The notes beneath the pieces were generated by a model. It made no database searches. It was not told the origin of the DNA and saw only the letters and a program-made list of their open reading frames with translations. From Polytrichum commune (taxonomy: Eukaryota > Streptophyta > Polytrichopsida > Polytrichales > Polytrichaceae): DNA of 64,000 nucleotides. Positions 16,335 through 57,039 of this stretch are shown piece by piece (within the stretch, counting starts at the first letter, position 1; every line of letters begins with the position of its first letter). The stretch covers positions 4,092,001 through 4,156,000 of the forward strand of contig OX485809.1 of NCBI GenBank assembly GCA_950295325.1, given 5' to 3'. The translations under genes and the position numbers were made by a program.

Positions 16335-16554
16335 TGATCGGGGAGGATTTTGGGCATAATCGGTTGAGATACTAGTGTTTGCAAGTCCAACCGGTTACAT
16401 GTTGACATCCTCCGGTTTTCCTTTATTAAATTGGGGTATATTCTATAAATTCCTCTCAAATGATCGGTAATTTTCCTGCAGTCTTGAACTTCAACCGGTT
16501 CTTTTTCAAACTCAACCGGTTCATTTGTAACTAATTGCCGGTTCTCCCCGATCA
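16335..16554. mobile_element. 220-bp MITE with TGATCGGGGAG termini
   Basis: A perfect 11-bp inverted terminal repeat, TGATCGGGGAG / CTCCCCGATCA, bounds the element. Inside are several CAACCGGTT motifs. Relatives occur at 55179-55282, 55475-55706 and (inverted) 55751-55970, all sharing GATTTTGGGCATAAT and the ACCGGTT motifs. No clear target duplication was found, so the superfamily is not assigned. Confidence 0.75.
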
Positions 16555-20062: not shown

Positions 20063-21074
20063 TTCAAGAAATCCAACCTCATTTAGAATACCTACTCCAT
20101 CCTGTTATAGATACAATGGTCAACTATGTCAATAACTTATCAATAAATTAGCATAATTTCATCCTAGACTTTAAAAAACACATGTAGAATGATCCCAAAT
20201 TAACTAATGTAATTACGTTTATACTTTAGAGTGTCGCAAAATTTATTCATTACAAGTCTTCTAGCATAAACCTAGTGTTCAGTTGAATTACATTGTGGTG
20301 CATTTCCCATTGATTGTATGACAATTTATTTTCATTTAATAAAAACACTAGTCTTGCATATTTGTACGTTCCCATCACTTAGGATCTCAATGTGTAGTTG
20401 TCGTTGATAAACAATGTTTATGGTGCAAAAACCCCTGTATTTCAAAGCATGCATGCATCCATGGCTTGGGTTGTTCTCATCATTGTGTTCCCAATGAGTT
20501 CCCACTATCTTCATAATAGTCCCAAAATTGTCTTAAAGCCCCAAAATGTTTATTATAGTGTTCTAGGTGTATATACTATAGCACTTTGCTTGCCTCCAAG
20601 AATAAGAGTAGGACTCTTTAGTGGAAGATTAACATGAAATAGCAACTGGCATAACCATATAGCCTCTTTGGTAGCAATACATGCATCAAAATACTCGGCC
20701 TCTGCTATGGAAGTAGTTGTAAATTCTTGTCCTTGGTTGTTCCAAGCAATCAAACCTTCTCCTAGTGGAAGACATAACTTGTGCAAGAGTGCGAGTATCA
20801 GTATGACCTCTGAAATCAATGCTACGAAAGCCTTTGACCCTACCAGAAATAAAACCAATGGAATAAACCAAGCCAAAATCAATAGTGCCTTGAGATATGG
20901 TATAGTCCTTTGGACAGCTATGTAGTGTCGTGTCTGGTTTTTCAGAATACTTTGCCACAATATTGATTGAATAGGTTATATCAAGTCATGTAAGAGTAGA
21001 GAGTTACATGAGGCATCCCACATGTTCCTTGTAAGGAACATTGAGAGGGATAACATTTTCAATGTCAGTCTATT

Positions 21075-22989: not shown

Positions 22990-25055
22990 AGTCTATTGGG
23001 TGGAGACTGAAATTAGAATCCTGCAGACCAAATTTGTTCAGAACATGATGAATATAACGAGAGTTTGATGGAGAAAAGTGATTTCTTGGTCAATACAGAG
23101 AGTAACTTCGAACCCCCTGTAATAATCCAGATCTCCTCGAGTAGTCTTGAATGCTGAATCCAAATCCTGTAGAATAACTTCCATCCGTTCCTGGCTGGTA
23201 GAACAAATTAGCGCCATCACCAACAAAGATATCGAGAATAACAGGGGGTTCAGTGAGATTGTGATAAACAAATGGATCGGCTTCACTGGGAATTGGACCA
23301 AACTTGATGAGAAACTTGTCAAACTTTTGGTTCCATTGCCGTGCTGATTGTTTAAGGCCATATATAGAGACTTTGAAGTGAGAAACAAAGCCAATCAGGT
23401 ACTTTCACACTACTTAAACTTAGAGGTTGCTCCATGAAATTTCTGACATTCAAGTCCCCATTAAGGAAAGCAGACATCAAATTCCTCCATCGTCATCTTT
23501 TCCTTTGTAACCATAGCTAGATGATTCGGAGAGCATCAAACTTGATGACAGGAGCGTGCGTCTCGCTATATTCAATTTCTTCGACTTGTGAATATCCTTT
23601 TGTAACCAGTCGGGCCTTAAATTGCTCAATCTCTCCATTTGGTTTAGATTTGACTTTATAAACCCATTTGCATTTAGTAGCTTTTCTTCACGCTGGAAGA
23701 GGGGCTAACCTCCAAGCATTGTTCTGCATAAGTAAGTCATACTCAAACTACATCGATGCTTGCCACTTATTCGCCTCGAGAGATCGCAAGTCTTCTGCAT
23801 AGGTTTTTGGTTTATCAATAACATGAATACTACTAGCTATCCAAGCAACAGAGCGAGTAGTGGTACCCAGTCACCGTATCGCTGAGGAGGTAGTCAAGTA
23901 CGTGGTCGTAAATCCTCAGGAGGATTTTTGGTCCTCGTGGTCTGTTGAATAATTACTAGCAACACTAGTTTATGAGGAAACTGAGGGATCTAGAATGATA
24001 GGTAATACAAGGTCTCTAGCTGAGAAACAGGGGCCTCCTCATTAACATTCTGGGGAAGAGGTTGTCCTTCATGATTGTTGTGATCTCCGTCAACGGGCGC
24101 TGGATCTGGATGAATTGGTGCTGAGATCAAAGCTAGCACTGATGTTGAAATTGGTGGAACTGGGAATCTAGAACATGAAGATTTCCAGAGAGAGCACACT
24201 GCCTCCATTTATAGAAACACTGCCTCCATCTATAGTGGGTAATTCTTATGTGACAACATTAAATCGAGTATCAGTAGCAGTTTGAAAAATATGAACATCA
24301 GAAAAAATGGAGATCTTCTTTGAACCTGGATGCCATAGCCGATAGGATTTTCCTCCACCTGTATATCCTACAAAGATAGCCTTCTTGCTTTCCACAGCTA
24401 ATTTGTTCCGATGAGATCTAGGAACATGCATGCATGTAACCTGTGCTGTAAGAATGCAAAAATATGACACATCAGTCTTCGAATTGGAAACCTTCTCATA
24501 AAATGTGATGTCCTTCAATTGGGTATTGACAGCCCGGTTCCATACATGGACTACTGTAATACCAACTTTGGCCCCAAAGACCTAAACGTAAGGAAGCGAC
24601 TGAGTGTAACATACGACGTACAGCTATTATCGTCCACTATTGTGCGGTTACTTCTTTCAATGAAACCATTCTGTTCTGGTGCAGAAGCTGCAGTAAGCTC
24701 ATGCTGAATTCCAGAGTCGTTGAGATAGTGCTTGAACATTATTCTCGTAAAATCCCCTCCTCTGTCTGACTTGAGTTTAACAACCTTGACTTTGAGGTCA
24801 TTCTGGCTGAGAGCAACTAGCGCCTTCAAACATTTCAGCGCATCTGATTGTTTTTAAAAAAAAAAAAATCAATGAACAAGTAGCCACTGGAATCATCCTT
24901 AAAAGAATGAAGTACTTTGCCCCTCCGATCGAAGTCTGACTTATCGGTCCACATAAGTCCGTATGAATAAATTCCCCAGGAGTAGGCCATCTAGTTTAAT
25001 CAGGGTGGGTCACATGTGAAGACCTAGTTTGCTTTCCAAACAGACATGGTTCATA

Positions 25056-26285
25056 GCTGAGAGAAAACCTATGGCTACATATATATGGTCAATTGCCGGT
25101 TGTAGCTTGAGGAGGAATGTTGAGGAGATTTGGGGGCTATATATGTTTGTGGTGAATGCATATTATGGAGGTGAAAGCATGTTCGTTGTACTTATAGTAG
25201 ACTGTGTGGGAAACTCATATTGGCTCAATAATCCATGGCGAGTGGGGGGAGGTTTAGGATAGTAGGAACATTTAGGACAAAGTTGAATTGTATGTGGTGA
25301 CTTTTTCCAGTATGTGTGTTGTGGGATGATTATTGAGATGATGAATTGGTTTTCTTCTGCAGCCATGCGAGCCTAGTGTATGGCTTCTATTGTGGATTGG
25401 TGGTCTAGCGGGTGGGCATATCCCAACCCTCCCCATTTGTGGGAAAGTGCAGGCCATGTGGAACCAAATAAGCTATCTCTTAGGTGCGGTGAGTGATATT
25501 GTGTGAGTTTCATTGGGCATGTGAGGGGGGAGGAGTAGTATGAGTGAGTGATGTTAAAAATGTTGATTAGGATGGTCACGATGTTTTCATAAAGGTGATG
25601 ATGCCGGTTGTTTGGGGTGATCGATCATTTTGGATTTATTCCTTAGGAGCGGAGAGATGTATCATTTTATTAAACCCAAGGACTTTGGTTTCGAAGTCTT
25701 GGGGTGATGGTTGCATGTGTGGTCACGTCTATCCCATAAGTCATTATAGTTGGCTATCAAAATTGGTGGTGATGTAGGCACCAATATGGTTGTACATATG
25801 TGTCCATGGTGGTATTAGTTGGATAGTGGATTTGGAGGTTACATTGTTGGGTATTTTAAGGTGAGGTGTGGGGTGACTGGGGGGGGGGGGGGGGGGGGAA
25901 GTGTATATGTCTATTGTTGAGCGATTATTGTTAGTGGTGGTGGGTGTGGTGCATGGATTTCCAGTGTGTGGTGTTATGGTGGTTGAAGTATTGGGTTAGA
26001 AGTAGTAGATTGTGTTCCAAAGTGATATTGTCATATGGGATAATGTGGTGGTTGGGATTCATGAGGTCCCACTAGAAGGGGGCCATTGGCATAGACTATG
26101 TTGGCTAAAGCATATGCTCCCCATTGATCTTCTCTTAAGTGAATGTGGAATTAATTATTTTTTGTATGGGCGGACAAAGTGGGGGGTGGGATGGTAGGGT
26201 GGGGGGAGTGTATAAGGTGTGTGGGGTATGCTATTGTGGTGAGGTTGAAAGATGTGTTTAGCTTGGGATAATGCAACTTTAATTA
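25056..26285 (+). other. G+T-biased tract, no gene
   Basis: The plus strand is strongly biased to G and T (runs such as TGGTGGTGGGTGTGGTG) and holds a 20-base G run at 25879-25898. It adjoins the 5' side of the copia relic, so it could be old retrotransposon leader or gag sequence. No gag motif is legible. A similar tract lies at 32690-33770. Confidence 0.5.
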
Positions 26286-26772
26286 CAGTCCACCCTCTTT
26301 AAATGTTAGGCTTTGGAGTAAAAATTTCCTAACATTTATAGCGAGTTAACATTGTAACAGTTATAAAGGGAGTTTTTTGAATGCTTAACAAATATAAATT
26401 CATTACAATTATGGAGGGAGAGTTTTGCAAAATTATCATATATGAAATATGTGCATCAAATCAATCTTTTATTTTTATGAAACAAAATAAGAATCAATAT
26501 AGTCCAGATGAATAATTTGATCACAAAAGTCAAATTTGGTGGCTTTTGACACTTTGAAAGGTTGTGAGTCAATGTAATGGATGTCATCACACAATATTGG
26601 ATGTATTTCGTAGGTTAACAATTATAAGTGGCAAATTAACAAAGAGGGGAGTAAATTATTGTTAACATTTAACATAGTTAACATTCTAGTTAGCAATATG
26701 AGGGAAGTATGATTTTGTTAACAAATATAATGAGTAACGTTTATAAGTGTAACATTTATCAAGGGTGGACTG
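26286..26772. mobile_element. Pogo/Tigger-like non-autonomous TIR element, copy 2
   Basis: It begins CAGTCCACCCTCTTTAAATG and ends with the complement of CAGTCCACCCTTGATAAATG. TA lies on both sides (26284-26285, 26773-26774). The interior repeats TTAACA-TTATAA motifs as in copy 1 at 217-661. It is 487 bp, non-coding, with more intact termini than copy 1. Confidence 0.85.
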
Positions 26773-29700
26773 TAGTTGGGGGGTTGATTTATATATGGTT
26801 TGGAATACTTACAGGGAGAGAATATGTGTTTGGTATGTGCTCTTAATTTGGCTCATGATGAAGATGTGAAAAACAAAGGGGATTGATATTTCCACACCTT
26901 TTTTGGCTAGATTCGCACCTTTTTGCCGGTTCGGTTGCCGTGTCACTGAGGCGCTATATATGAGATTCTTCATGGTGCATCCTGACCGTTGATCCACCAA
27001 GGCCCATCCAAGGGCCTCAATGATCCTAGGTGGCGGTGGGGTGGGGGGCGGGGGTGGTGCTTGCCACCAAGGCGGGATGGGGCCGTGGGCCTCATGTCTT
27101 TTTTGGGGAGGCCGGAGTTAGGGTGGTGTCGGGCCTAGTGGCTAGGCCTACTTATTATATAACTAGTTGGTTACCCTTACTCTACTTACTAAATGACTAG
27201 TTTGGTATCTTTCTAACAAGGCATTTCATTTGAGTTGCTTAATATATGGATTAAGAAGTCCATGGTTCAAAGGAAATTGCCTTCACAAAACATAATTTAA
27301 GATAGGGTGTCTGCAGTTAGCTTTAGGAACAAGAAGGAAGGGAGAGGGAATTGGTGGGCCTTCTTGAATCGCACAATCAAGGAGGTCCAAATATTCACAT
27401 ATGGGGTTTGAAGTGTGACAATCTTGTATATTTTCAAGATCTATTAGGTATGGGTAATGGCAGAGATAGCACTAGGCATTTGGGGGTTGTTAGGCCTAGA
27501 CCCGAAGAGAGGGAGAGGTTAGCTGATAGACAACGCCTTTGTTGCGCTCACAAAAGGGGTGCCAAAAAAGCTTTAAATTGTGTGGTCGTGGTGCCGTGGT
27601 TGTATGTAATTGACAAGTGCATATAGTGACCCATGATATTGTTTCCTCCATTCATACCATATTAAGAGTTTCCCACATCATGTTACCAAGGATTTTGTCA
27701 TACAAAAAGTCCTTGCTAGCCCTTTTGCAAGTTCTAATAGTATTCCTCAATCAAAAACTGACCTTGTCCAACAATATATTATCCATGAGCTTGTGAAGTG
27801 ACTATCCTAGGTCAAGAACCCTAGTTTGTCTATCAATATTGCAACTAAACATGCTAATCTGATTAAGGGGTATTGATCTGTAGACTTGAAGAAGTTATCA
27901 TGGACGAGCCACATGCAAAGGAAACTTGCGCGTGTGGTTATGACCAGACCCATTATGGCCTTATCTTTTCATAGCCCCTATTTGTTCGTGCTATTTCAAT
28001 TTTGGCTCTATGTGTCGCAATGTGGTCAAGTCGTTTGCATAACCTTTCATGTGATTTAGCTCAGGAAAGGCTTTTGCGCCATAATGTTGGCATAGTTGAA
28101 TTTGAAGGATGCAATTCCTCATTTAAATAGAAATCTAGTGTTGTAGGTGTCATTCTAGGAAGGTTAGGAATACACCCATACAAAATCAACGGTACCATGG
28201 AAAATTGAATTTCCACATAAGACAACATGGTTCCCATATTTTTCACATGTTATTCCCTAGAGCATTCATTTAAATCATGATAGTTATAGAGGGAAGCCCA
28301 AATATTTTTATGTGGATCATTAGGCAAGTGAAAATTTCACCTTGTACATCCAATGAAATTTGAAATTAATCCTAAGTGTCCTAGGTGTTCTAGGTGTCAT
28401 CCTAGGAATCTTAGTGTTTGGGATTCATAATGAATAGATGTTTTTGGGAGTATGTTGTGGAAGGGTTTGAAGGGTTTGTTTTCACACAAGTGTGGGTTGC
28501 ATCCTATTTAGATGGAATTCTTCCTCGGATTTCAGAAGGCACACACTAGCATGGTCATCGAAAAAAACGTCATTTGATATATTGTGGCCATTCCAAGTAA
28601 AAAGGATGAAATAGCGCAATGTTGCGTTGTTGCATATAATATATTGAGATGAAGGAGTTGCGTACATGTTTCAATAATATACGATTCGAAGGGAGGTATA
28701 CACCTAGAGAACCGGTGTAAGTGTAGTGTAATGAATTTTACCATCCTAATGATTTAGATTCCTCTTTTGTGTAGGCAACCATGCTACTTATTGATCTTGA
28801 CTACGTTATGAGAGTCTATATAGTCCTCACGAGATAACTTCACATAGTGACATGCTAGAGAGTGCATCTATAAGAAATATGAATATTGTGGAGTTGATAT
28901 GTTGCCCATATGCTTACTTGAAGAGGAAGGAGGGTTAGGAATGTTAGTGAGTTGGAAACATTTTGTTATGCAAGACATTTTAACAAAGAATGAGAGCCAC
29001 AAAAAAACTTTCAACTAATTGGTACATTTATTCATCCTAGTGACTTGATTAGATATTTGAAGCCCAAACTTGCCTATTTTGTACATCATAACTTTATTGC
29101 TAGATACCAAGATGCCTAATTCAAGAATTGCTGCAAAACATTTCTTGCAAATATTGTAGTCTTTGTCATTGAATTTGCTGTGAACTACACCTCTGAAATT
29201 CGTAATAAGGTCCAATCAATGCATTGGCACTCCATTCAAATCACTATTCTAGCTCATTTTTGTTGGTTTACAAATTCTAGTTTCAAAGATAGAAGAAGAT
29301 CCAAAGATAGTCAAGAATTATCATTTCAATGTATTTAATAATCCTATTCATGATTCGTGTTTTTTTCAACATTGCCTACAAGTACATTAAAAATACATGG
29401 TTGAATAAGGTCTTTGGCCCAATATGAACTAAAATAGGTACTCCTTTGATTTTCAATCCAAAGATGAATTTATGCTTACAGTTGAATCACAAATAAACTA
29501 AAATTAAGATTTGAAAGTCTTGGTGAGTAAAATGGATCTAGATAGTCTTACTAAACATCTAATGTCCAAGCTAAGGTTAGTTGCCGTAAAGTAAGCAATT
29601 TAAATCATTTTATTGAAATTTATTTTCTATAATGTAGCCCAATGTGGCCTAACCTCTAATATAATTCTTTATAAAACCTGATTTTTTCTTTGAAAAATAG

Positions 29701-31844: not shown

Positions 31845-34134
31845 AGGTCCTTAGACCAAGAATTAGATTTATCAAAGCTAAAGTATGTCAGAGCAGATTG
31901 AGACCCAAGTTGAAAAGATAGAATATTAAGGTAGAAGAGTTCGGACCGCCAAAGATCCGAAACCTAAATCACAAGAGATAGATATGAGAGATGTTTGAAT
32001 AAAGCTTAAAACCACCTTATAGAAGGTTGCCTCAAATAGTTGGGGTGAGGTTTTCTTTAATTCTTGCCTCCAAAAGTTTGCATGCCTTGGATACCTGCCG
32101 AAGACTTTAGCCATCGGTTGATTTTCATGTTATAATTTTATATATCTTAGACTTAGTAGTGTCAAAATGCACTTATCAAAATGAAATCCCACATCACAGA
32201 GATGAATTTGCAAAGTCAAAAGGGCCTTCTAATAGTCAACTTCATTTGGCTCCACTTGTTTAATTGATTTGGCACATAATCACCTCAAATTCTCAAAAAA
32301 TCAAAAGCCACATCTTTATCTACCATTCTTATTTTATTTTAGCTGGACTAATTCTAATAAATTTAACAATATTTCTTTGATGTTCTTTGCTTTAAGATTT
32401 TACCTAGTAAGCTAACATTTAATTTAAAGTCCATCAACTCACAACATCATTTATTTCCTAATTTTTATTACCATTACAACAATATTGATTGATTAGAAAA
32501 TTATTTAAATCTTTCACATGTGTGGGCATAGGGATATGTGTAACTTAAGATTAAGTCAAGACACGTATAGGTGCCTCAACTTATAGAGAATGAGATACAA
32601 ATAAAAAACTTGGTGAGGGTTAAGAGAGTTTGTGTAAGGTGACATAAAATTTGGTTTACAAAGAACTGCCGTATCCATGCATGCCTCACTAGCAAATGCC
32701 AGTTGTTATGTAGGTGTGAGGTGGAGAGGTTGATACAATCATGATCCCAAGGCGTATCCTTTGTGCATGCAACTTTTGTTGGATTTGACTAAGATGGCTT
32801 GTAGATTATGTGTTGTGGCACCAAGTGGTAGCTGTAGCTGGGTACATGGTATGATGTGTTGTTTGGGTGTGTGGGTAGGGGCACTATGCAAGGGAGGCAA
32901 GGAATTGATGGAGGGGTTATGAGGAGGGTGTGTCGGGGGAGCCAATGCATGCAAGATAACAACGCATTTGAAGTGAGTGGGCATAATTGCGGGGTAGGTT
33001 GCCGGGATGTGGGTGTATGGGAGTTTTTATGCTTGGCGAGATAGACTTGCTAGGGTGGGTGAGTGGATGTTTGTAGTTGGATTGGGGGGATTTGAGGGGA
33101 TAGGATTGTAGATAGGGGATAGGAGAATGGGTGTGTAGGGGTGCAGAGGGAGCATAGCTTGTAGTAACTTGGTGGGTCTATGTGGGTTCTTGCAGGAAGA
33201 GCAAAGGAATGCTACAACGTCGGGTCACCATTGGGGGTGGGGGGGCATAGGATATGGCTAGCTAGGCAGTGTGGCAATTGAATGTGCAAACAATGGATGG
33301 ATAGTGAGCTCAAGTTGGAGTGGTGTTGGTCGAAAAGATGTTGTCTTTGCTTTGGTGGTCATCGAGACTGTGGCATGTAGGATAGTTGGGTAGTGAGGGT
33401 AGGAAGGAGCAAATTAGAATGAGTATTCTGGGCATTGTTGTGAGACGTCTTATGCATTTTGGAGTAAAAGAGGTGTGTTTGGTGTGCTGCTTTGTTTGCT
33501 TGCTAAGTTATGACTCGAGTCACTACAATGGCGTTGATGTTTTGTTATCACAGCTTGTGATTTGACTAACATTTGGTGTGGATTGCGCCATATGAGGTCT
33601 TTGAACTAGGGTTTTGCTTTTGATGTGCGGGCTATGTCTCAGCCATGTAGTTTGGTTGGCACTTGGTGTTGATGGTTGTTTTTGTGGCTCCTTGTTGCGC
33701 TTGGAGTCGGATTAATTGGCTCTTTGTGCACGGAACATTGTGTGTGGAGGCAGGTGCGGTGCTATCCTTAGACCCATCCTCTTGGTAGCCAAAAGACATT
33801 AGAGGGAAACACTAATCAAAACTAATTAACTAATGTGCCGAGTGGTTGATGTAAGTAATAACATTGGAGAAGATGAATTCACCATTGGTAGGAATTTCGA
33901 ATTGAAGTCTCAAGCCCAAAAACGTGGTGTCATTCCAAAATGTTTTCCTAACAATGATGTCACCATATGATGTGTCATGTAAACAATTGAGGTGGATGCA
34001 CACATATGTGGGTGGAGAATGTAATTTGTTATGCATAATTAACAAAGGGTACGGTTTAAAAAGCTTGGCATCCACAATTATACCTCTTAATGGACCATAC
34101 TTCATACTCAACTTGATTGGACCCAAGCTTGAAC
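31845..34134. other. Intergenic, including a second G+T-biased tract
   Basis: 31845-32690 is AT-rich with no gene. 32690-33770 is strongly G+T-rich on the plus strand, like 25056-26285. Its minus-strand frame (32984-32739) is just P/T/H-rich low complexity. 33780-34134 has two opposite ~100-aa frames without motifs. Confidence 0.45.
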
Positions 34135-36287: not shown

Positions 36288-39200
36288 ATGGCTGCGGTGT
36301 TGGGATTCCAGGTGGACCAGAAGGTGCTGCTAGCACTGCTGGTGGGCGCTGTGGGTTTGTTCGTAGCGTGGTGGAGGAGTGTCACCTCCTGGGAGAAGGT
36401 TGCAGGACCGTACGCCAAGACTCTCCCCCCTGGGAAATGGGGTCTGCCTTATGTCGGCGAGTTCCTCGAGTTCATGTTCACGCAGAAATACAACCACGGC
36501 CAATTCGTGGAGAAGCGCAAGGCCAAGTACGCATTAATTCAGTCATTCCTTCCGAATTTATCCTATTTAAGCAGAATCTTCAGCATCTCGATATCCATTG
36601 TTCCTTAGCTCAGTTTCCTTGCACGAAGCGAAATTGTGATGATCTGTCAAGTTTGATCCTCCTTGAGGATTAGTTATGCAGGTGTTGAATCTCCATTGTT
36701 CCGTCATCATGGGGTGGATGAGATAATAGGTACTAGATAGGACCTATTTGAGGAGCCAAACATCAGGTGTTGATTGGGATGTGTGTCGTGTCGGACCATG
36801 ATCCATAATAAAAAAATAGTGCTACTTAGTCTACATGTTGCAAATCTGGGAGGGTTAAGAGAGACATCAGCAACTTACAGAGGTTGAGTTTCAGGAGCCA
36901 AACAAGTAGGTGGTGGGCTGTGTCGGACCATCCATAATCTAACAATAGTGCTAGACGAGTTTTACATGTTGCAAATCTGGGAGGGTTAAGAGAGACACCA
37001 TCATCAAGGTAGAGAGGTTGAATTTCAGAAAGCAAACAGTAGGTGGTGGGCTGTGCTGTCGGCCCCATCCATCACTCAACGATAGTGCTTAAGTAGTCTA
37101 CATGTTGCAAAACTGGGAGGGTTTAAGAAACAATTCGATTATGTCAATGGACGGAAGAGGAGGTTTGATTGTGCCAAAAACATTGGGCGTTTGAATTTCT
37201 GGTGTGAGCTGTCAATCACTTGAGCTGGATTGACTTAGATGATGATTTGGTCTGAACCATCATTCTATGTGCGCAGGTATGGACCTCTGTTCAAGACCCA
37301 CATCTTCGGTGAACCCGTCCTCATCGCCTCCGGCACAGAGGATGTGAAGCTGGTGCTTCAGAGCGAAGGCAAGCTGTTCCACCCCGCCTACCCTGTTGAG
37401 CATACCGGCCGAACCAGTGCCCCTGCCATCCACGGCGAGGAATGGAAGGCATGGAGGCGCTTCGCCCTGTCCAAGGTCGGATTCTTGGCTCTCAAGGATC
37501 GCATCAACGCTGTGGAGGAATTCGCTCTCACCAATTTGAGCACCTGGGAAGGCCGTCGTGTGCTTGTGGGCGAAGAAGCCAGAAGTGTACGCATAACTTA
37601 CCTACAATTAATTTTCAACAACCAGTCCTACTTTGTGTTTTTCAATATTCTATGAAGTCTGAGATTTGAAATTTTTTTCTGCTTCGGAATCATGCACAGT
37701 TCACTAGACTCGCCCTCATTGATCCAACATCACCTAGCTATTAACCGCCTTATGAAACCTCGGTTGTGCTTTCTTGATTCTGTAGATCACGAAAATTGGA
37801 GAGAGGACTAAGTTATCAAATAAATTAGGCAAAAGATTATGTTTCTGAACAACTAGATGCACGCTTGAAATTTTGCGATTGTGAATTAAAATTTGGTGCT
37901 TTCGAATGCGGTGCAGTTCACATTTGAGATCGTGGCCGCTGCTCTCTTCAGCGTCTTGAAGCCAGGAAAGGTGTTGGATGCCTTAAAGCATGAGATGTAC
38001 ACCTACACAGACGGACTCTACACTTCTGGCAAGAAGTTCCAGGAAGCGCAGAGGGTAATTCAATGCCCCTCTTATAATACCTATAAATTGCATTTTAATC
38101 CTTTAACAGCTCAAGTATAGTAATTAAGAAATTCAATGCTTTGAAGGTTTGCTGATATTTCTTCCTGCGATGGAATCTGACAATTCGTTTCCGCAGGCGA
38201 GGGGTAAAGCCTTGCAGATCATCTACCAGGACATCCTGCCCATGTGCGGTCCCAATGACATCAACCAGTTCCAGGAGATTCAAGATGTGAAGAAGCAAGA
38301 GCACCCGGAGCTTAACGAAGCTCAGTTGAGCGAAGTGGCCGAGGATTACGTCCACAGCATCCTCTTCGCAGGCCACGAGTCGGCCACCACGACTCTCACT
38401 TTTGCAGTAAAAAATTTGTCAGAGAATCCTGATATTCTGCGTGAACTCAAGGTAGGATTCACCCAAATCATCGAACCTTCCACAAATTTATTACTTCTTT
38501 TGTATGATTCCTCTTGCTTGGAGTGACAAATTTGCTTCATAGTAAGAAACTAGACTTACGAGGACCATTTGTGCTGATTCAGGCTGAGCATGACAAGATC
38601 CGCGAGAACAAGCCCGCCGATGAGAAGCTGACATGGGAAGAGTACAAGAGCATGACCTTTACTCAACACGTGATCACGGAGTCCATCCGAATGAGCACCC
38701 CGTTGAACCTCCTCATGCGAGAGGCCAAGGAAGACGTCAAAATCTACAGTAAGCACTTGGCATTGCACAAACCTAACTTACATCAATCATCAACACATTG
38801 CAACAAGTTGATGCTCTTTCTCTAATATAACACGATCACTCATAAGGACTTATCTGATGAAATTGAAATTCTGAATCTATTCGCTTGTTGACGAGCAGAT
38901 TACATTGTCCCCAAGAAGTGGAAGGTCTTCACCTCCCTCATGTCTGTGCACTACGACCCTGTGGGATTCAAGGAACCCCTCAAGTTTAACCCTTACCGCT
39001 ACATGGTAAGACTTTACCCTAATTCTTAAAACTTGTGCCTATATCATCACCCTTGAAAGATGCAATAGGATACCATTATTGAGTTGACAATGTGATTATT
39101 TTTCTGTGATATTTGTTTCAGTAGACTCTAAATACTGAGCATGGTGTATTGGTTTAAACAGGGTCCTGATGCTGGCAAGGTTCCCTTCATGGGCTTCGGC

Positions 39201-46755: not shown

Positions 46756-49362
46756 TTATGCTTCGTTCTTCAATTTTCTTGAGTACACAATGTACATTGG
46801 ATCACTTCTTCCTGGATTCGGCGAAATGTCCAACGCCTGAGGTGGCTCAAAACCCTTCGTATAGTGAAAATAAGAACCCACAATCATGACATGATCAACA
46901 TCTCCAGTGGATGTCCAGATTGAAATGGCTTTCGTGAAAAAGCATCGGTTTGAGAAACTCATGACTGCCAATCCTCCTGGCTTCAAAACTCGGTGCATTT
47001 CCTTGAACACCTCCAAAGGTTTGGTCAAGTAGTCAACACTGACAACATTGGTTATGACGTCGAAGCTGTTGTCGGCAAAGGGAAGGGACGGGTTGTTATT
47101 CAAATCTTGAACGACGTATTCTGTCAAGGCCTCATTCTTCTTCAACTCTGCATCGTTTAGACCTAGCCCGACAATCTTCTCCTGCTTGTAGCCCTTTGGG
47201 TAATGGCTGATCCAACTACTGCACATGTCCAGGACTGTCACACCAGGAGTGTTGGCAGGTGGGAGTGCCTCTGAATAGTATTTTGTGAGTGCACGAATCG
47301 CAGGATCATCAATGTGGGTGACAAACCGTGGGTTATCATAGAATATCGTGTCTGGTGACCTGTGTACTCCAAACAAACCACGCTGCACAACATTTAGAAC
47401 ATTTGGAACATGAAGAAGAGATTGCAATAACATACCAAAAAAGAACCGATAACACCTATGTTTACCAACACTAGCATGAATGATAAAGTCTCTTCGCCCA
47501 TAGGCTAGTGACTCAATTAAGAGGTGGACTCTTTCTGAAGGCCATAACCGGAGCATCTTTGACACCCACAACTTTGAAGATGTGACCCCCACAATAATTG
47601 GTGCACCATGGCTCGGCGGAGAATGGAACCCATACCCCTTGCAAGGTGGAGATAAGCTGATATCCTTACAAAATCATTCTGTCTATTTTGTAAGGATATT
47701 AGCTTCATGCTTCAATAACATACATATGAACTTCGGCTCATTACACACCAGATTTTGTGTTAACCTAGATCACAAAGTGACAAAAAATATATTTTCTTCT
47801 AGCTACAGAAGCTTCGAGATCCAAGGCACTTTTTTTGAAATAGAAATAAATAGATAATTAGATTTGCCTTGCCTACAGAGAAGACATCATTTCTAGTAGA
47901 AAATAATCAGCTGACCAAACTTCAAGCATTCAAAATTTCTCCTCGATCTCTTATTGGGACTCTTAGCTTTACTTACTACCAAGGATGAGAATCGGAAGCA
48001 CAGTAACGTGCACAGTAACTTAAAGATTGCAATAGAATACATACCAACTCTTCGGATCATCACAGACCAAATTATGCAGCGACCTATACAACAAAGCCAC
48101 AAAGGATACATTTTCTTGTAGCTACAGAAGCTCTGATAACTGACTTTGAAATTTTCTTCCCCATCAGTCATTGCTACATATCATATTCAAACACCTTCGA
48201 TCATGTGTGTAATACTGGCCGCCTATTGGGGCCATGGAGTGCTTTAAATCGATTAACCACAAGACATGTGCAGCCATACTCACCTGTTGGAATACTTAAA
48301 TTACTAGCTGAGGTTATTTTTGCTGCAAAGAAGCAATATGACCTATCAGGACGTTTGAACAATAGATTCTGAAACGTCTTATCCATTCTCTACTTGCTCC
48401 ATAGCCGAACTCTTGAAGCCGCAGAAGAGATTGACTCATTTCCATATTTCCGCGTTCACTCATTTCTGTTAAAACTTGGCAGTAAGAAGGACTCCGAATG
48501 TCAACACTACTTCAGACATCCAAACAATTTTTCTGATTTCTCGGCTGATCCTTCTCACAAATTCTTCGCAAGCAATGTAAGAAGCCACCACAGCTGTACC
48601 CTAGGCTTCATAAGAATGTGCCTAAATCAGAATTCCCGCTTCGACCATGTGTCGTGCACATCGATCAATTAATTCTTCAATGTGGGCAAATCAACTTGAC
48701 AAACATCTGCAATATATGCTCAAACGCTAATCCATTCTCTACTTGCTCTATAGCACAACTCTTGAAGCCACGATAGAGATTGACAACGATGCTCACGCAT
48801 TATGTCAGATTTGGCATTACGAAGGACTCCGAATTCCAAAACGAATTCAGAAAAATCCAACAATTTGATGATCTCTCGGCTTTGATGCCTCTCAAAGCCC
48901 TTTAAAAAAAAATTCAAGAAGTGATCAATAGCTGCACCCTAGGTTTCACGAGAAGGCGCCTAGACCAGAATCCCCAATTCCTCAATAATTGGTCAATGTG
49001 GGCAAACCAACTTGACAAACAGCAATTGAGAGCAGAGGAAGGAGTAGAAAGGCAATAACTTACTCATCGTAGCGTGAAAAATCCTCTTTCTTGAAGGGGA
49101 ATTCCTCCGGCCACTGCACATTCTTGAGCACCTCCTCCGCCTCCGAAATGGTTCTCCCCGCTTGAGCCCGTGCTGGAGTGCCTGCCATCATACCCAACAT
49201 CCCTCCAAACGCAAAAGCCGGGCCCTGGACAGTCAAGAACCGCCTTGTTGTTCCTGAAATTGATACTCTATTCAATTGCCCTTGCACTTGCACTACCCTG
49301 CTCACACTCGTTAATGCTGGCGCCAAGGATGTGACTGCCATCCCCAAACTCCTGACCACCAT
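46756..49362 (-). CDS. Class I SAM-dependent methyltransferase with lumen-type leader
   Basis: Two exons, 49362-49064 and 47359-46756, join at DE|SPDT to give 300 aa. The catalytic part (about 101-300) is a methyltransferase-11-like fold: PRFVTHIDDPAIRALTKYYSE, the cofactor loop TVLDMCSSWISHYP (141-154), DNSFDVITNVVSVDYL (196-211), EMHRVLKPGGLAVMSFSNR (220-238) and NPGRSDPMYIVYSRKL. The usual Gly-rich motif I (GxGxG) is replaced by DMCSSW, as I recall for a plant and bacterial subgroup. Residues 39-68 show TRRFL, a hydrophobic stretch and ARAQA, a twin-arginine signal with an AxA cleavage site, after a basic/S-rich plastid-like leader. I infer thylakoid-lumen delivery. The substrate is unknown. 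The 1.7-kb intron is full of tandem repeats, and copies of the exon-1 start lie upstream. Confidence 0.88.
47658..47699 (+). repeat. 15-bp perfect hairpin in methyltransferase intron
   Basis: ATATCCTTACAAAAT (47660-47674) and ATTTTGTAAGGATAT (47685-47699) pair perfectly around a 10-base loop. Positions 47658-47687 have an inverted 30-bp identical copy at 46411-46440, beyond the 3' end of the gene. This may be the end of a small mobile element. Confidence 0.75.
47740..48180. repeat. Diverged direct repeat in methyltransferase intron
   Basis: 47740-47870 and 48050-48165 share CATCACA-ACCAAATT or its relatives, then ACATTTTCTTGTAGCTACAGAAGCT versus ATATTTTCTTCTAGCTACAGAAGCT. They are about 300 bp apart and non-coding. 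Confidence 0.6.
48375..49020. repeat. ~350-bp tandem duplication beside exon 1
   Basis: Unit 1 (about 48375-48715) and unit 2 (about 48728-49020) share, in order, ATCCATTCTCTACTTGCTC, AACTCTTGAAGCC, GAAGGACTCCGAAT, CCTAGG-TTCA-AAG and TCAATGTGGGCAAA-CAACTTGACAAAC. Both lie in the intron within 700 bp of exon 1. Confidence 0.8.
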
Positions 49363-49440
49363 TTCCTCAAGCTCTTCTACTTGACCCTTTTGACTGCTTG
49401 AACTTAGGAGTTGTATGTTCTTCTGGTTCGAGCAAACAAT

Positions 49441-50030
49441 TCACAGCTTAACCCATGACCACATAGCTCGTCCAATTTGCACTTTCCGGGCGGTCATTCT
49501 GTCTGACTTAACGATTGAAAGTTGAGATGCCTGATAAGTGGCAGCTATTGGGGGGCGGGGGGCAGGGGGAAGGCAAGCGTGGCTTGCTGAGATACTCTCA
49601 AGTCCTTTGGGTCGCAGGATAGCATGTGCAGGTGGTGGTGACATGGACTCCATGAAATGCTGACATGGCAGCCACGCTGCCGTCCCCGAACTCCTTACTA
49701 GCATTCGTCAAGCTCTGACTTGATTTCTTTCCTAATAAGTTTACTTGAATTCCGAGATGCAGTGAGTTCTTCTGGTCGGCTGGAGCAAGCAATTCTCACA
49801 TTGACCTAACCCAAGTTAGCTCATAGCTCGTCCACATTGCGATTTAGAGTTGAAAGTTGAGATGCCTGATGAATGGCAGGTGTGGCGGACGGAAGGCAAG
49901 CGTGGCCTCATCAGATGCTTTGAAGTCTTCCGGGCCGCAGGATAGCATGTGCAGGTGACGGTGATGAGGTGGACTGCACAACGTGCTGACATGGCAGCCA
50001 AGCGGTCCAGAACCGCGAGCTTTTGCAATT
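49441..50030. repeat. ~345-bp tandem units upstream of the methyltransferase
   Basis: Unit 1 (about 49362-49700) and unit 2 (about 49704-50030) share CAATTC-CA---TGACC, AGCTCGTCCA-TTGC, GAGATGCCTGAT-A-TGGCAG, CGCAGGATAGCATGTGCAGGTG and GCTGACATGGCAGCCA. Each unit begins at a copy of the exon-1 start. Confidence 0.8.
49670..49720 (-). pseudogene. Extra copy of methyltransferase exon-1 start
   Basis: On the minus strand 49704 begins MLVRSSGTA, matching MVVRSLGMA of the real exon 1 at 49362. The similarity then passes into the repeat and no RR-leader follows. It keeps an ATG but cannot make the transit peptide, so it is called a decayed copy. An upstream transcript could still begin here. Confidence 0.6.
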
Positions 50031-50139: not shown

Positions 50140-50240
50140 TTCATCAAAACGGTGTCTGCAGATTGCTTATGTTTCATCAGAACGGTGTCTGTAGATTGCT
50201 TGTGTTTTCATCAGAACGGTGTCTGCAGATTGCTTATGTT
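50140..50240 (+). repeat. 33/34-bp minisatellite, three units
   Basis: CATCA(A/G)AACGGTGTCTG(C/T)AGATTGCTT-TGTTT repeats with GGTGTCT at 50151, 50184 and 50218. Block B has only one unit (near 52390), so the expansion is specific to block A. Confidence 0.9.
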
Positions 50241-50864
50241 TTCACCAAAACGAATTTATTTCTACAACAGTATTACATTCTTCCAGAAGTAGTTTGTTTT
50301 TGCCTCGATTACTAGCAGAGCACGTTGAACCCTAAACCCTAAACCATCGTCGCTATATTTCTTCGAGCCCACACATGATCCAGCTTCTGGAGAGTTGAAC
50401 ACTGACGCTCGTTCTTCAGTTATTCGTGGATTGCAATTCGAACTTCATTCGCCCTATTTGCTCTTCTTAATTTTTGTAGATTTACGTACATCCTTGGAGA
50501 CCTATCACTATGACGTTGTAACGGTGTATCCAGAAAGTATTGCGAGGAGAAGTCGTTCCCAAAATTCATGCAACTCACAGGTCAGGTGCTTATGTTGAAT
50601 GATCGAGTTTAAACCCTACCTTTCAAAATACTAATTAGACTTTCTTGGTGATGTTCGGGACTAGGGTATTTGCTGTGAAGTACACTGCAAACTTTCCGAA
50701 GCAGTACTGTACCTCGGCATACAATCTAGCCATTTTCAACTGATTGACATTCTTGAAGCCTGGCTGCCTATTTGTGATGCTGCCTGCAATGTTGTCACCG
50801 CTGTCATCTGCACAGGCAGACCTAAGGAAATGCTGATGCTAAATTCCAGGTTCTTAAGATTTAT

Positions 50865-51343
50865 AGCTTCTTAACATACACTTGTAGTTTCGACAATTTG
50901 CAAATTGTCCATGCTGGACAATTTGCAATCGGAGTTCGACTATTTTCGGAGCGTTTGTCCGCCTTTTCCGTAACTGATGTCCACCGAAGTGTAAGCCTCC
51001 CAATCTGAACAAACATTCGGGTAACGATGGTGAGTTCCCCATGCGGCCCCCACTGATTGTCATACATATTAAACTCCGGCACGTCGTGGTAAACCCTCAG
51101 CTCAAACACTTTTGGAAACGCGACCGCACTATCTGGGCCAACTCCTCCGGCCCGTCGATCACCCTATATCCTATCCGACATGTCGAAGGGAATGGTGGCA
51201 ATGCTGCTCAATTCATAGCTTCTTCATAGACTTTGGGTTTGGGTCGCAACACCCAGCTGTCTATGCTCCGAATGGGAGTTCTATCACCATTTGGACCCTT
51301 TGATCCACGACCTTTTCCGTAACTGATATCCACCGAAGTGTGG
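50865..51343 (-). pseudogene. Decayed copies of the two-block protein, block A
   Basis: 51109-50865 reads VYHDVPEFNMYDNQW, then VTRMFV, then LRWTSVTEKADKR, matching VPEFKMYGRPW, VTRMFVAQ and the segment after it in the intact gene, with frameshifts. 51343-51234 repeats only the last ~110 bp (CCGAAGTGT...CACCCAGCTGT). They correspond to 53616-53960 and to the 3' end of 53975-54739 in block B. The rest of the second copy is deleted at 51343. Confidence 0.75.
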
Positions 51344-51943
51344 TGTCAAAGCATGTGAGTTGACAGTTGAAGCACAATCCGATGCACCTGAGTGTGCAAA
51401 AACGCTCACATTTTGATGAGCCAGGAGCAGGATAATGTTTACTTCCGAAGAAAAGACAGAAGATTGATTCACAAGAAATGAGCCGGCTTTGGAGGGAAAC
51501 TCCAAGAATGTCAAGTGCATCAAAACAAACACGTTAACCCTTTAAAGGTCAAAGGGTGTTTATTTGCAAATTAAGGTGACTTTCAATGCTCAATTGTTGT
51601 TTACACTACAAGAGAGTTGTTATGAAACATTCAAAGATTACAACCATACGGTTGAAAAGCTATGTTTTAGTGTCTTGACATACTCACTAAAAGACCATGT
51701 GTAAGATTTTGATTGGAAATGTTCATAAAAGAAAATCCTAACAAGGTATTACTGTATTTGATGAAAATACAGTATGTTCCAAGGCTCAAAATTAAAGCCC
51801 TGACTCCTAAAAAGGCCTGCAAACTTGTTGTAAACTTAGAATGGGTCAAACAAGGGCCCTGAACTTGCACAAAATCTATGGGTACCTTAAAATCAAAATC
51901 TCAACAGCGGACGTTTTCAACCCTTCCCAAATCCTTTATGGAT

Positions 51944-52076
51944 CGTCAAGAACCTTCTTGTGGTTCCAGGGCTTCATACTCTGTTCAACGGCCCCTTGTA
52001 CTTGCACAACCCTGCTCACAGTCGTCAATCCTGGTGCCGAGGATGTGTATCCCACCCCCGAACTCCTGACAACCAC
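51944..52076 (-). pseudogene. Decapitated copy of methyltransferase exon 1
   Basis: The minus strand from 52076 reads VVVRSSGVGYTSSAPGLTTV, then SRVVQVQG, in frame with real exon 1 (MVVRSLGMAVTSLAPALTSV). The start codon is GTG instead of ATG. Homology stops at the block edge before the RR-leader. The frame is preserved for ~43 codons but there is no start. Confidence 0.75.
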
Positions 52077-53615
52077 TTCCTCAAGCTCTTCTACTTAATC
52101 TCTTACGCTGCTTTATTTTCGAGTAGTATGTTCTTCTGGCTCAAGCAAGCAATTCTCAGCTTAACCCATGAACACAAAGCTCGTCCACGTTGCACTTTCC
52201 CGACGGTATGTCTGTCTGACTTGAGCAATGAAAGTGCTGACATGCCAGCCACGCAGTCCAGAACCTCGAGCGTTTCGCGATTTGGTCGAATTTTGTGGGT
52301 GGACTTCGAAGGTGAGGTGGTGATGACCCACATCGCACTAGTAGGAAGAGGATCATGATTCAAAAAGTATGCGAATATATCAAAATAATGTCTGCAGATT
52401 GTTTATTTTTTCACGAAAACTTGAAATTCATTTCTAGTAACGACAGTATAATTACATCCTTCCAGAAGTAATGTGGATTTTTCTCCATTAGCTGAGCATA
52501 CTGAACCCTAAACTCTACACCGTCGTTGCGTTTCTTGGGGCCGAAACTGGTCCAGCTGCTAGTAGATTGGTAAACACTGACTCTCATTCTTCACTTCTTC
52601 GTAGATTGGTATTCAAACTTCAGGAAGTTCGAGACTCAGTTTTCATTCAGCAAATTGGAGCACCCTAGTTGCTTCTTTTTTTCGCGGCTTTATGTGCTTC
52701 CTCGAAGGACCCATTTTGTGATGCTGTCACGGCGTATCCAGAAAATATTGAAGGGAGATTGGATTGGTCCCCAAAAACAGGATCTTTCTCGCATCTCACA
52801 GGTCAGGTGCTTATGTTGAATGACCAATTTGAACAACGACACACAGAAAGCGCTCAACACAAGGTGCGGTAGAAACCCTAAAACTTCCTTTTTCGGTTCT
52901 TGGGACTACAGATTTGTGTGTAGCACACTGCACACTTCTCCGAAGCAAATCACATCCACATGCAAGCAGCAAATCTTGCAGTTTTTATATGAAATGACAC
53001 TCTTGATGCCCGGCTGCCTATTTGTGATGCTGCCATCATTGTCACCGTTGAGATCTTCACAGGCAGACTTGTATACATGATAATACGAAATATTGGAAAC
53101 TTAAGGTTAGAGTGAACCTGTTCGCATTGAGCGTGTTTCCTACTAGTGATTCATGAACAGTGACTTTGTGTTGGAAGGTTTTGGAGGGTCCTTGAGCACG
53201 CCTTCGCTCACTTAATTCACTGTGAGTTGTGTGTGCGACACAGCCTTCCTGTGTGGTTGTTAGGATTGATGCTCATGCTTATTAAAGTATGCTCAGATAC
53301 AGCAGATGTGTATTGTGATTCCTGTTAATACAATGATGAAGCTCAGTGTGCCATGAGTGGTTGTGTGAAAAGCAACGTGCAGACCATATGAATAATGATG
53401 ATAGTGGTATCTGTCAATCCGGTGTTTGATAGTTTTTCGATGTGCTAGTATTTGCGTTGAGTATGTTGTGAACAGGACAGTAAACTATAGATTACGATAC
53501 TAAATTCGAGCTTCTTGAAATTTATAGCTTCTTCACAGGAATTTTTTTAAAGAGATGGTGGATCTGCGCAGGCAAACTAGAGGAAATCAAGTTAAACTTC
53601 CAGTTTCTTAACAGG

Positions 53616-53960
53616 ACTTTAGGGTTTGGTTCTCAACACCCGACCGTCTATGCTCCGAATGGAGATTCGACCATTTCGATCTGGTTTTCCATCTATTCCG
53701 TACGTTATATCCAACAGCTGCGCGACAAACATCCTTGTGACCATGGTGCCTTTTCCCACTCGACTCTCACGGATGGCCATACATCTTGAACTCCGGCACC
53801 CCATGGTAAACTCTCTCTCCCTTTGCAATCCCCAGCTCCAACAATTTTGGATACACAATCGAACCACCTGTGCCAACTCCTCTGTCCCATCAATAACCCT
53901 AAACCCTGTCCGACATGTTGAACGACATGGCAGATTTCCACAGGTTGCTAAATTCATAGC
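53616..53960 (-). pseudogene. Tandem decayed copy of the second protein block
   Basis: The minus strand reads RVIDGTEELAQVVRLCIQNC, then frameshifts. Another frame continues VYHGVPEFKMYGHP before a stop, then GTMVTRMFVAQLLD. This is block 2 of the 254-aa gene (138-252), placed 15 bp beyond the gene's stop. Because block A carries both this copy and the parent remnant, this duplication is older than the A/B duplication. Confidence 0.85.
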
Positions 53961-53974
53961 TTCTTAACAGGAAT

Positions 53975-54739
53975 CTATGGTTTCGATCGCAACACCCAGC
54001 TGTCCATGCTCCGCATGGGAGTTTGACCATCTGAACTTGAATTTCCGCCTTTTCCGTAACTGATGTCCACGGAAGTATACACCTCCCATCCGGCGCAGTC
54101 CAGCGCGCCAATCAGCTGCGCAACGAACATCCTTGTGACCATCGTGCCTTCCCCAAATGGCTCCCACGGACGGCCATACATCTTAAATTCCGGCACCCCG
54201 TTGTAAATTCTCTCGCCCTGCAATCCCCGGCTCCAGCAGTTCTGGATACACGACCGCACCACCTGGGCCAACTCCTCCGTCCCGTCGATCACCCGCACCC
54301 TGTCCGTCATGTTGAAGGAGATGGCGGCCGTTACGGCTGCCTGCGGCGGCACCGGCTGGCACCGGAAAAACAAGCTGTCCTTGTCGTGCTCTTTGCGGCT
54401 CACGTCGGTGGCGACAACGAGCACCCACCCGCGTTGCAGCATGAACCCTAGGATGCGCGCGATAAGTCGGCGGGCGCCAACGGCCTCCTCGTCCTGGCCC
54501 AGCCATGGCCGGCCCCCCAGCTTGAATTCGTACGAGACCGCGTAGCTCCCTTCCGACTGGATCCCGCGCGTCCACGACGACTGGATCACGGCGCGCAGCG
54601 AATCCACCATTTCGCGCGACATATTCATCACGCGGAGTTTGTCCGTCTCGTGGAGTGAGATGCACACCACGGAGAGCAGCTGCTGCTGCTGGTGCGAGCT
54701 TTCCATATCGGAATCGCGTCTTTGCAACGAATTACCCAA
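53975..54739 (-). CDS. Two-block protein of unknown function, 254 aa
   Basis: This is an intact single-exon frame with two internal repeats. Block 1 (about 24-127) and block 2 (about 138-252) share ISxxxTDxxRV (27-37; 140-150), IQxxWxRGxQ (52-61; 165-174), EFKxxGRPW (71-79; 184-192), ARRLIARILG/TRMFVAQLIG (89-98; 202-211) and GWxxxxxxDxS (104-114; 217-227). Block 1 ends in a basic/acidic SRKEHDKDSLFFR. No signal peptide or membrane segment is seen. The N-terminal half is GC-rich relative to the neighbourhood. From memory the EFKLxGxPW...GWxLxxxxDxSRKxxDKDxLFF pattern resembles uncharacterised repeat proteins in animals and protists; I cannot confirm that or offer a function. The decayed copies around it show a history of duplication and loss. 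An alternative ATG is codon 12. Confidence 0.7.
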   Translation of the reverse strand: MGNSLQRRDSDMESSHQQQQLLSVVCISLHETDKLRVMNMSREMVDSLRAVIQSSWTRGIQSEGSYAVSYEFKLGGRPWLGQDEEAVGARRLIARILGFMLQRGWVLVVATDVSRKEHDKDSLFFRCQPVPPQAAVTAAISFNMTDRVRVIDGTEELAQVVRSCIQNCWSRGLQGERIYNGVPEFKMYGRPWEPFGEGTMVTRMFVAQLIGALDCAGWEVYTSVDISYGKGGNSSSDGQTPMRSMDSWVLRSKP

Positions 54740-55178
54740 TTGACATGAAAGTTAGTCCAAATGAAAATGCAACGGCGAAGTCGCCCATTGATATAGAATT
54801 GAGTGAAACCAAAAGTCCACATTGTTAATTTTCAAAATTTCTAGTTTTACTCACTCTAGAAAATATTCTGCGGTACTTTGAGATTTCTTTTGTTTCGAGA
54901 AAGCCAATTTACCTCTTCGACTTGACCTTGACTGTGCCTCCAAAACTTTGAGGTTTGAAGTTCTTGTCTGCAACAGTAAGCCTTATGTAGGGTTCTAACT
55001 CCTACATTTATGGTGTCGAAGCGTGTGATGAGTTGAAAGCTGGAGCATAATCCGAAGGGCCCAGGTATGTTCGCATTGTAATTTATGATGAGTCACCAGC
55101 AGGATTATGTTTGTCTTCCGAGAAAACAAGGCAGATTGATTCACAAGATATGACTCATCAGCTCGCTTCGGAGCAGCG

Positions 55179-55970
55179 TCCGGGGAGGATTTTGGGCATA
55201 ATCGATCGAGATCCTGATGTTTCCGATGGTTAACCAGTTACATGTTGACGTCTTTCGGGTTTTTTCCTTATTAAATTGAGGAATATTCTGTAAATTTCTG
55301 TGTGGGTGGAAAATTAGCATGGTAATAATTAGCATGGCCCATGTTAATTTTCTAGTTCTAGATGTATGCGTAGCTCATCTAAGAAGTGGAGCTTGGGGCA
55401 CAAATCTCTTGTATTCACAAAAAAAGATCTCTTGTATTTGCAGAAAATCCCAATTTCAGGTCCTTGCAAACAATGTCCGGGGAGATTTTTGGGTCTAATC
55501 CGTCAGGATCCTAGTGTTTCCAAGTCCAACAGGTTATAAATTGTGATCTTTTCGTTTTTCTTTGTGTACTTAGGTACATTTGACAGATTCCTCTGAAATG
55601 ATGGGTAATTATCCTGATGTCTTGAACATCAACCACTTATTCTTCAAACTCAACTGGTTATTTTTCAGACTCAACTGGTTCATCCGGAACATGTTCTCCC
55701 CATTCATTGCTTGCGAATTGACATGCGCGTAGTAAAAGGGTTTGGGCTTATGTCCGGGAAGAACCGGCGGTTAGTTACAGATGAATCGGTTGAGTTTGAG
55801 AAACAACGGGTTGAAGTTGGAGACATCAGGAGAATTACCGATCATTTCAGAGGAATCTATAGGATATACCTCACATGAATAAAGCAAAACCGGAAGATGT
55901 CCACATGTAACCAGCTGGATTTAGAATCACTAAGATCTTGACCAACTATGCCCAAAAACTTCCTGGGCAC
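55179..55970. mobile_element. Cluster of three CCGGGGAG MITEs, two forming a fold-back
   Basis: A partial copy (55179-55282) is followed by two full-length copies, 55475-55706 forward and 55751-55970 inverted, separated by 44 bp. Each shares GGGAGATTTTTGGG-like ends, TTCAAACTCAACTGGTT-type motifs and the GAATC-CTCTGAAATGAT core with the element at 16335-16554. The inverted pair can fold into a ~220-bp imperfect hairpin. Confidence 0.75.
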
Positions 55971-57039
55971 TGGTTTGGGCTTCATGTTCAAAGTGGAGAT
56001 TGTCAAGCTCATTCATAAGTGGTTTTATTGGTCCAATGATGCTAACTATTAGCCCTTCCTTAATTTGTACTCGTGCATTTCAACAGGGCTCAAGAAATGG
56101 GATAACCATGGTTTGAGATTGGTCTACATGCCGATGGAGGCAATGAAAGGGATGGAGCCACAGTGAGTGGTGAACTTCGCCATATTCTGAGATCAAGTCG
56201 GCCAACTCCTATCGATGGGTAATCTACATTCATCATGTGCGTGATGGTTTTTCAAGTATACAAGACATATGGTTTATGTCGAAATCATGTTTATTGTATC
56301 ATGTTATCACGCCGTGTTTTCATTATGGATTTATCCTCAATTTCTATGTGCTTTTGTTTAAATTTGATGAAGGTGCAATATTGGAGGAACCATAACATTA
56401 AGTAACAAGCCCATAATGACCTTTTCAAAAGAGCAACAAACCGGCATGTGCCGGTTTGATGCTCTTTCAAGAGCCATGGTAGCGTAACCTTTGAGTTTCA
56501 CTTAGGTTATTTTTAATTTATTTGGGTAGTTACTTTCAATGCTTAGAATTAATTATGTCGGTTTCTAGGACAAAACTAATGTCAAGTGGTAGTAAAGGTT
56601 CTACTCTAGGCTAAATTACGATCTAAACAAATCTAAACAGCTATAAAGCAATGGGAAAGTTGGTGAGGTCAAATAGGTAGTTCCACTTTTTGGAAAAGTC
56701 TCCCGACACCCGCATTGGAAATCTCTTTGATACATTTTTGAAGTTACTATATTTAATTAATTGTCCATTCATTCACCCTTGCTTTGCAAGCTTTTCCCTT
56801 CTTGTTTAGGTAATATTGCAGGTACTCAAAAGGTACCCTGCTAGCATTGCTACTTAATGGTATGACTCCCCGAAGCAAAAAACCAAAATCCAAATATGAT
56901 TGTGTAACGCCAAAATGCATAAAAAGTGAGTTTTGCAACAAGTGTGCACATAAGCTCAAGGAAAAGAAGTTGTGGAGTGGATGATGGAACAAGCATTTAT
57001 ATTTGCGAGCTGTGAGGACATTTTTACAAATTTTTGAGG
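55971..57039. other. Intergenic, nothing recognised
   Basis: A small inverted repeat, AACAAACCGGCATGTGCCGGTTTG (about 56436-56459), has a perfect GCCGGTTTG-type stem flanked by AAAGAGC/GCTCTTT. Otherwise no gene or repeat is supported. Confidence 0.5.

Follow-up and report, generated by a model that had tools for sequence, protein, structure and literature searches.

A moss gene for a protein of two homologous blocks with a predicted Q4D6Q6-like fold

We examined a stretch of 64,000 nucleotides from the moss Polytrichum commune (contig OX485809.1, positions 4,092,001 to 4,156,000 of the forward strand; hereafter, the window), in which one open frame translates into a protein whose two halves resemble each other. 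The locus raises the question of whether this frame is a real gene, where it comes from, and what kind of protein it encodes.

The frame and its two homologous blocks

Read on the minus strand from position 54739 to 53975, the frame translates to 254 amino acids (aa) followed by a stop, in agreement with a preliminary description of this DNA, which had named an intact frame of that length with no strand given. The frame from stop to stop (53975 to 54751) comprises 258 uninterrupted codons, and the first ATG, at 54706, would give a product of 243 aa. In the frame translated, the plus strand at the gene is broken by stops. The gene has a GC content of 61% and a GC3 of 79%, with GC of 0.58, 0.45, and 0.79 at the three codon positions; the corresponding values are 0.48, 0.39, and 0.47 for a 305-codon frame on the same strand (46756 to 47673) that matches Methyltransf_11 (E value, 1e-12). 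Because the stretch is rich in GC, the length of the frame alone is weak evidence of coding: 47 of 5,000 dinucleotide shuffles of the gene stretch contained 257 or more consecutive open codons in one of the six frames. Coding is supported instead by the conserved relative described below and by codon phasing. The locus appears to be a genuine gene whose product has two domains in tandem, and the gene is probably in use.

The two halves of the protein aligned without gaps over 95 residues, 32 of them identical (BLAST, 65.5 bits). None of 2,000 shuffles reached the half-against-half score of 158, the best of them scoring 56. Each of the four motifs listed in the preliminary description was present in both halves: ISxxxTDxxRV (ISLHETDKLRV in block A and ISFNMTDRVRV in block B), IQxxWxRGxQ (IQSSWTRGIQ and IQNCWSRGLQ), EFKxxGRPW (EFKLGGRPW and EFKMYGRPW), and GWxxxxxxDxS (GWVLVVATDVS and GWEVYTSVDIS). 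Its reading of the protein as two homologous blocks held up in the alignment and in the shuffles. The features of the locus are collected in Table 1.

Table 1. Coordinates within the window of the two-block gene, its blocks, and its decayed copies
Feature	Position	Strand	Basis or remark
Intact coding frame, no interruption	53975..54706	-	243 aa from first ATG; open to 54751
Block A, first domain	54344..54676	-	Repeat alignment; AlphaFold2 pLDDT 83.7; Foldseek
Block B, second domain, same predicted element order	53978..54343	-	Repeat alignment; AlphaFold2 model
Decayed tandem copy: block B and C-terminal end	53620..53931	-	43 bases past the stop of the intact gene, on its downstream side
Second decayed block B copy	50928..51199	-	67% identical over 318 columns; gaps and a stop
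Decayed copy, C-terminal end only	51236..51339	-	Match to the gene

Family libraries, a relative on a fungal contig, and the age of the block duplication

The moss protein had no match in NCBIfam or PHROGs. Its best matches in Pfam had E values of only 0.04 to 0.13, below the cut-off where a cut-off is shown, and its best match among PDB sequences was to a designed protein (E value, 0.68). The relative described below matched nothing in Pfam or among PDB sequences. When a profile of four blocks (A4) was run with hmmsearch against PDB chains at E values up to 10, the sole match was 3hu5 (E value, 1.7), an isochorismatase family protein that we take to be unrelated; neither Q4D6Q6 nor KCTD, which are discussed below as relatives by fold, was found by this profile among PDB sequences at E values up to 10, provided that their entries are within the set used. 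Among the papers listed in literature searches, none dealt with a two-block family, which has no name to search by. The preliminary description had recognized no known family, and this is borne out within Pfam, NCBIfam, PHROGs, and PDB sequences, none of which named one; a clear match to a named domain family was looked for, and none was above cut-off. Its suggestion that the protein is undescribed stands in that the libraries searched hold no family model for it, but the fold, as predicted here, is already known.

We searched phage, plasmid, viral, and prokaryote collections, in which eukaryotes were not sampled on purpose. The moss protein had no tblastn match among phages and plasmids, repeated scans of viral contigs (including scans with motif patterns) yielded no relative, and neither did a first scan of prokaryote genomes. 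When 84,980 prokaryote genomes were then scanned with the motif EFK[LF]xGxPW, 51 loci were returned, and only one of these, L050, was a relative of the moss protein (38% identity over residues 23 to 235, 213 aa; E value, 5e-49). L050 is an uninterrupted two-block frame of 271 aa on contig NYXK01000162.1 (63.7 kb), which is filed under the MAG Deltaproteobacteria bacterium CPC1. The contig carries matches to HET (E value, 2e-26), to Fungal_trans_2 above cut-off, and to Zn_clus just under it (19.4 against a 21-bit cut-off), as well as to MFS and TsaD. Because of the HET, Fungal_trans_2, and near-cut-off Zn_clus matches, we consider the contig fungal and misplaced in a bacterial MAG, and we rejected a bacterial origin of L050. 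Deltaproteobacteria bacterium CPC1 is apparently a contaminated bin in the reference collection.

Like the moss protein, the L050 protein has a two-block layout in an uninterrupted frame, and the identity between the two proteins is 38 to 41% along both blocks. Its own halves share 24 of 91 residues (score, 102; best of 1,000 shuffles, 43). Both its N terminus, ahead of block A, and its C-terminal end are longer than those of the moss protein.

The candidates that ranked behind L050 were taken as chance matches. These were L043, the next best tblastn match (E value, 0.027), and L046, which came next when the open frames of 75 loci were searched with a profile (E value, 0.019). In whole-genome profile searches, the MAG matched when it was searched alone (1 of 1), and 1 of 52 genomes in its phylum matched, this again being the MAG itself; three further searches gave 0 of 6, 0 of 120, and 1 of 101 genomes. 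The last of these matches, L065 (E value, 4e-5; 24.7 bits), was rejected as chance on account of three stops inside the stretch.

To place the block duplication relative to the separation of the two genes, we compared the four blocks with one another. The A blocks of the moss and fungal-contig proteins share 45 of 102 residues (score, 265). Moss block B scored nearly equally against fungal block B (148; 37 of 102 identities), fungal block A (156; 28 of 96), and block A of its own chain (158). In a maximum-likelihood quartet built from 113 columns, the A blocks grouped together, as did the B blocks (bootstrap, 99%); the two other topologies had AU P values of 0.031 each and KH and SH P values of 0.04, and c-ELW kept one of them. 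Most likely, then, the duplication of the block predates the moss/fungal-contig split, whether that split came about by descent or by transfer.

Transfer from a fungus would make the moss gene one for a fungal-type protein with a role yet to be found. A fungal contig is the source of the sole sequence relative that we found, and the moss frame is uninterrupted and has a far higher GC3 than the neighboring methyltransferase frame (79% versus 47%). High GC3 is also seen in ordinary intronless genes, however, which counts against reading it as a mark of transfer. Further, the two proteins are far apart in both block A and block B (45 and 37 identities, respectively, of 102), so that an old shared gene fits equally well, and the search that yielded the single relative covered phage, plasmid, viral, and prokaryote collections. 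We regard transfer as rather unlikely.

Decayed copies and the history of the locus

The gene is accompanied by decayed copies of its 3' part (Table 1). The nearest of them matches the gene at 82.9% identity in a first part of 222 columns and then at 71% in 94 columns, with frame-breaking gaps and one deletion. Past the copy that retains only the C-terminal end, the match jumps, with 51341 to 51481 pairing with 55011 to 55153 (72%), and the rest of that copy is therefore apparently missing. Larger repeat matches in the window pair 50210 to 50861 with 52379 to 53108 (66%) and 50931 to 51339 with 53661 to 54076 (68%). Judging from the positions of these matches, the block B end was probably copied in tandem first, and the entire locus was duplicated afterward. 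The other copy of the locus would then have lost the part matching 54077 to 55010 and thus block A and most of block B. Contamination of the assembly in this window was judged unlikely, given that two other places in it carry decayed copies of the gene.

At 282 sites, changes were polarized by comparing the gene with both decayed copies; 9 of these sites differ in all three. On the branch of the gene there were 11 replacing and 8 silent changes, and on those of the decayed copies there were 16 replacing and 17 silent changes and 29 replacing and 15 silent changes. These counts bear on whether the gene itself is a nonfunctional remnant whose frame, unlike those of its neighbors, was kept by chance. 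Decayed copies do adjoin the gene, a frame of this length was reached in 47 of the 5,000 shuffles, and 11 of the 19 changes on its branch alter an amino acid. The silent fraction of 8 of 19 exceeds the 21% expected, but the decayed copies are similar in this respect (17 of 33 and 15 of 44, likewise above 21%). Against this reading, the frame has no break, its codon positions are phased, and it keeps 38 to 41% identity to the fungal-contig protein along both blocks. We consider it improbable that the gene is a remnant.

Several other features of the window were recorded. A foldback-like element of about 510 bases (55468 to 55975) matches its own reverse complement at 69%, and related stretches lie at 55184 to 55302 and at 16339 to 16550. 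The repeat pair 49226 to 49531 and 51939 to 52246 is 80% identical over 309 columns, and a tandem repeat at 36801 to 37128 has 2.5 copies of a 131-base unit (score, 391). Of the 1-kb steps of the window, those at 25001 to 27000 and 33001 to 34000 have the highest positive GC skews (0.34 to 0.49). The frame at 20553 to 20975, which we take to be retroelement-like, had no match in Pfam.

Predicted fold and proposed role

We modeled the protein with AlphaFold2 from alignments of 2 and 4 sequences. The alignment of the two full proteins gave a pLDDT of 77.8 and a pTM of 0.77; block A, with the three other blocks as its alignment, gave a pLDDT of 83.7 and a pTM of 0.77. Both blocks in the first model and block A in the second have the order strand-strand-helix-strand-strand-helix-strand-strand (eight elements); in the first model, a longer low-confidence loop lies ahead of the last strand of block B (residues 218 to 233, below pLDDT 50).

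The models were compared with the PDB by Foldseek, which gave 640 matches with the single domain and 665 with the full-length model; we considered the best 50 of each set. Among the best 50 of 640, the first eight rows were all chains of Trypanosoma cruzi Q4D6Q6 (E value, 2.3e-4 to 7.9e-4; probability, 1.00; TM, 0.61 to 0.68). They were followed by three T. brucei mt-SSU chains (E value, 2.1e-3 to 3.6e-3; probability, 0.96 to 1.00) and then by a KCTD12 H1 chain and a KCTD1 chain (E value, 0.019 and 0.025; probability, 0.99; TM to query, 0.46); KCTD chains lower among these 50 had probabilities of 0.35 to 0.94. For the full-length model, Q4D6Q6 and T. brucei chains made up rows 1 to 15 (E value, 7e-4 to 1.7e-2), with probabilities of 0.57 to 0.99 for the T. 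brucei assemblosome chains among the best 50 of 665; aspartate kinase and YkoF came next (0.20 to 0.54), and KCTD1 was at row 21 (0.89). No GFRP chain was among the best 50 of either set. Viral structures gave no match at an E value of 0.001 or better, and the highest probability among the matches listed belonged to a pandoravirus BTB/POZ protein (0.97; E value, 0.012). Structure prediction, which the preliminary description had suggested, thus returned the same eight-element order for both blocks with Q4D6Q6 as the best PDB match, and the fold of the two-block protein is predicted to be Q4D6Q6-like. That the blocks are instead ACT-like regulatory domains that bind and sense a small molecule is very unlikely: aspartate kinase, anthranilate synthase, and YkoF do occur in the Foldseek lists, above KCTD in the full-length one, but their probabilities do not exceed 0.54 (Q4D6Q6, 1.00 in every row; best KCTD chains, 0.89 to 0.99), and their rmsd is 11 to 18 Å.

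The Q4D6Q6/Q586B2 family of kinetoplastids (PDB 6xyb and 6xyd) has the eight-element order predicted for the moss blocks in common with them. In the available part of PMC10899635, Q4D6Q6 is described as a propeller-like tetramer whose topology is the same as that order, and its relatives by tBLASTn are given as Trypanosomatidae and Bodonidae only. Q4D6Q6 has a single domain per chain, whereas the moss protein has two in tandem, and the two are 14 to 17% identical, with no profile match. The predicted moss fold may also be similar to that of the KCTD1 and KCTD12 C-terminal/H1 domains (PDB 9foi and 6qzl; best-chain probability, 0.99; E value, 0.019 to 0.025). According to the available part of PMC7618933, the C-terminal domain of KCTD1 has five strands, shares with GFRP both its fold and its assembly into pentamers, and is close to that of KCTD12, and its outer face may bind partners. 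In contrast, six strands are predicted in each moss block, and there is no sequence match to KCTD. Moreover, the moss and fungal proteins are without the N-terminal BTB domain of KCTD, having no Pfam match at cut-off and about 10 to 30 residues ahead of block A. GFRP is tied to the moss fold only via KCTD1 (PMC7618933, available part). The T. brucei mt-SSU assemblosome proteins FQ, FR, FS, FT, and FU (PDB 6sga and 9hny) resemble the predicted fold as well, but they are longer (215 to 277 residues), belong to a mitoribosome assembly complex, and are 10 to 16% identical to the moss protein. The preliminary description had vaguely suggested similar blocks in animals and protists; this finds an echo at the level of predicted fold (Q4D6Q6 and KCTD1/KCTD12), and the sole sequence relative found in the phage, plasmid, viral, and prokaryote collections is fungal.

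Domains of the Q4D6Q6, KCTD1, and GFRP type probably bind partners and are not known to be enzymes. We propose, with confidence and doubt about evenly balanced, that the moss protein consists of two tandem domains of a ring-forming fold and acts as a nonenzymatic scaffold or regulator. Two molecules of it would pair into a four-bladed ring, and this ring may bind a partner. Closed rings are described for the relatives by fold, with four blades in Q4D6Q6 (PMC10899635, available part) and five in KCTD1 and GFRP (PMC7618933, available part). The dimeric scaffold is proposed because chains with two domains each supply an even number of blades, which would suit a five-bladed ring only if rings were stacked.

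A broader proposal, which we hold to be doubtful, is that plants and fungi share an unnamed fused pair of Q4D6Q6-like domains and that the kinetoplastid fold and the KCTD/GFRP rings form one old eukaryotic superfamily of ring scaffolds, with the two-domain form as the missing link. The moss and fungal-contig proteins fall outside every family model of the libraries searched. A two-domain relative by fold in a moss and a fungus would widen the range of a fold that is reported as confined to kinetoplastids in the available part of PMC10899635, and the two-domain form would offer both a testable ring architecture and organisms that allow gene deletion.
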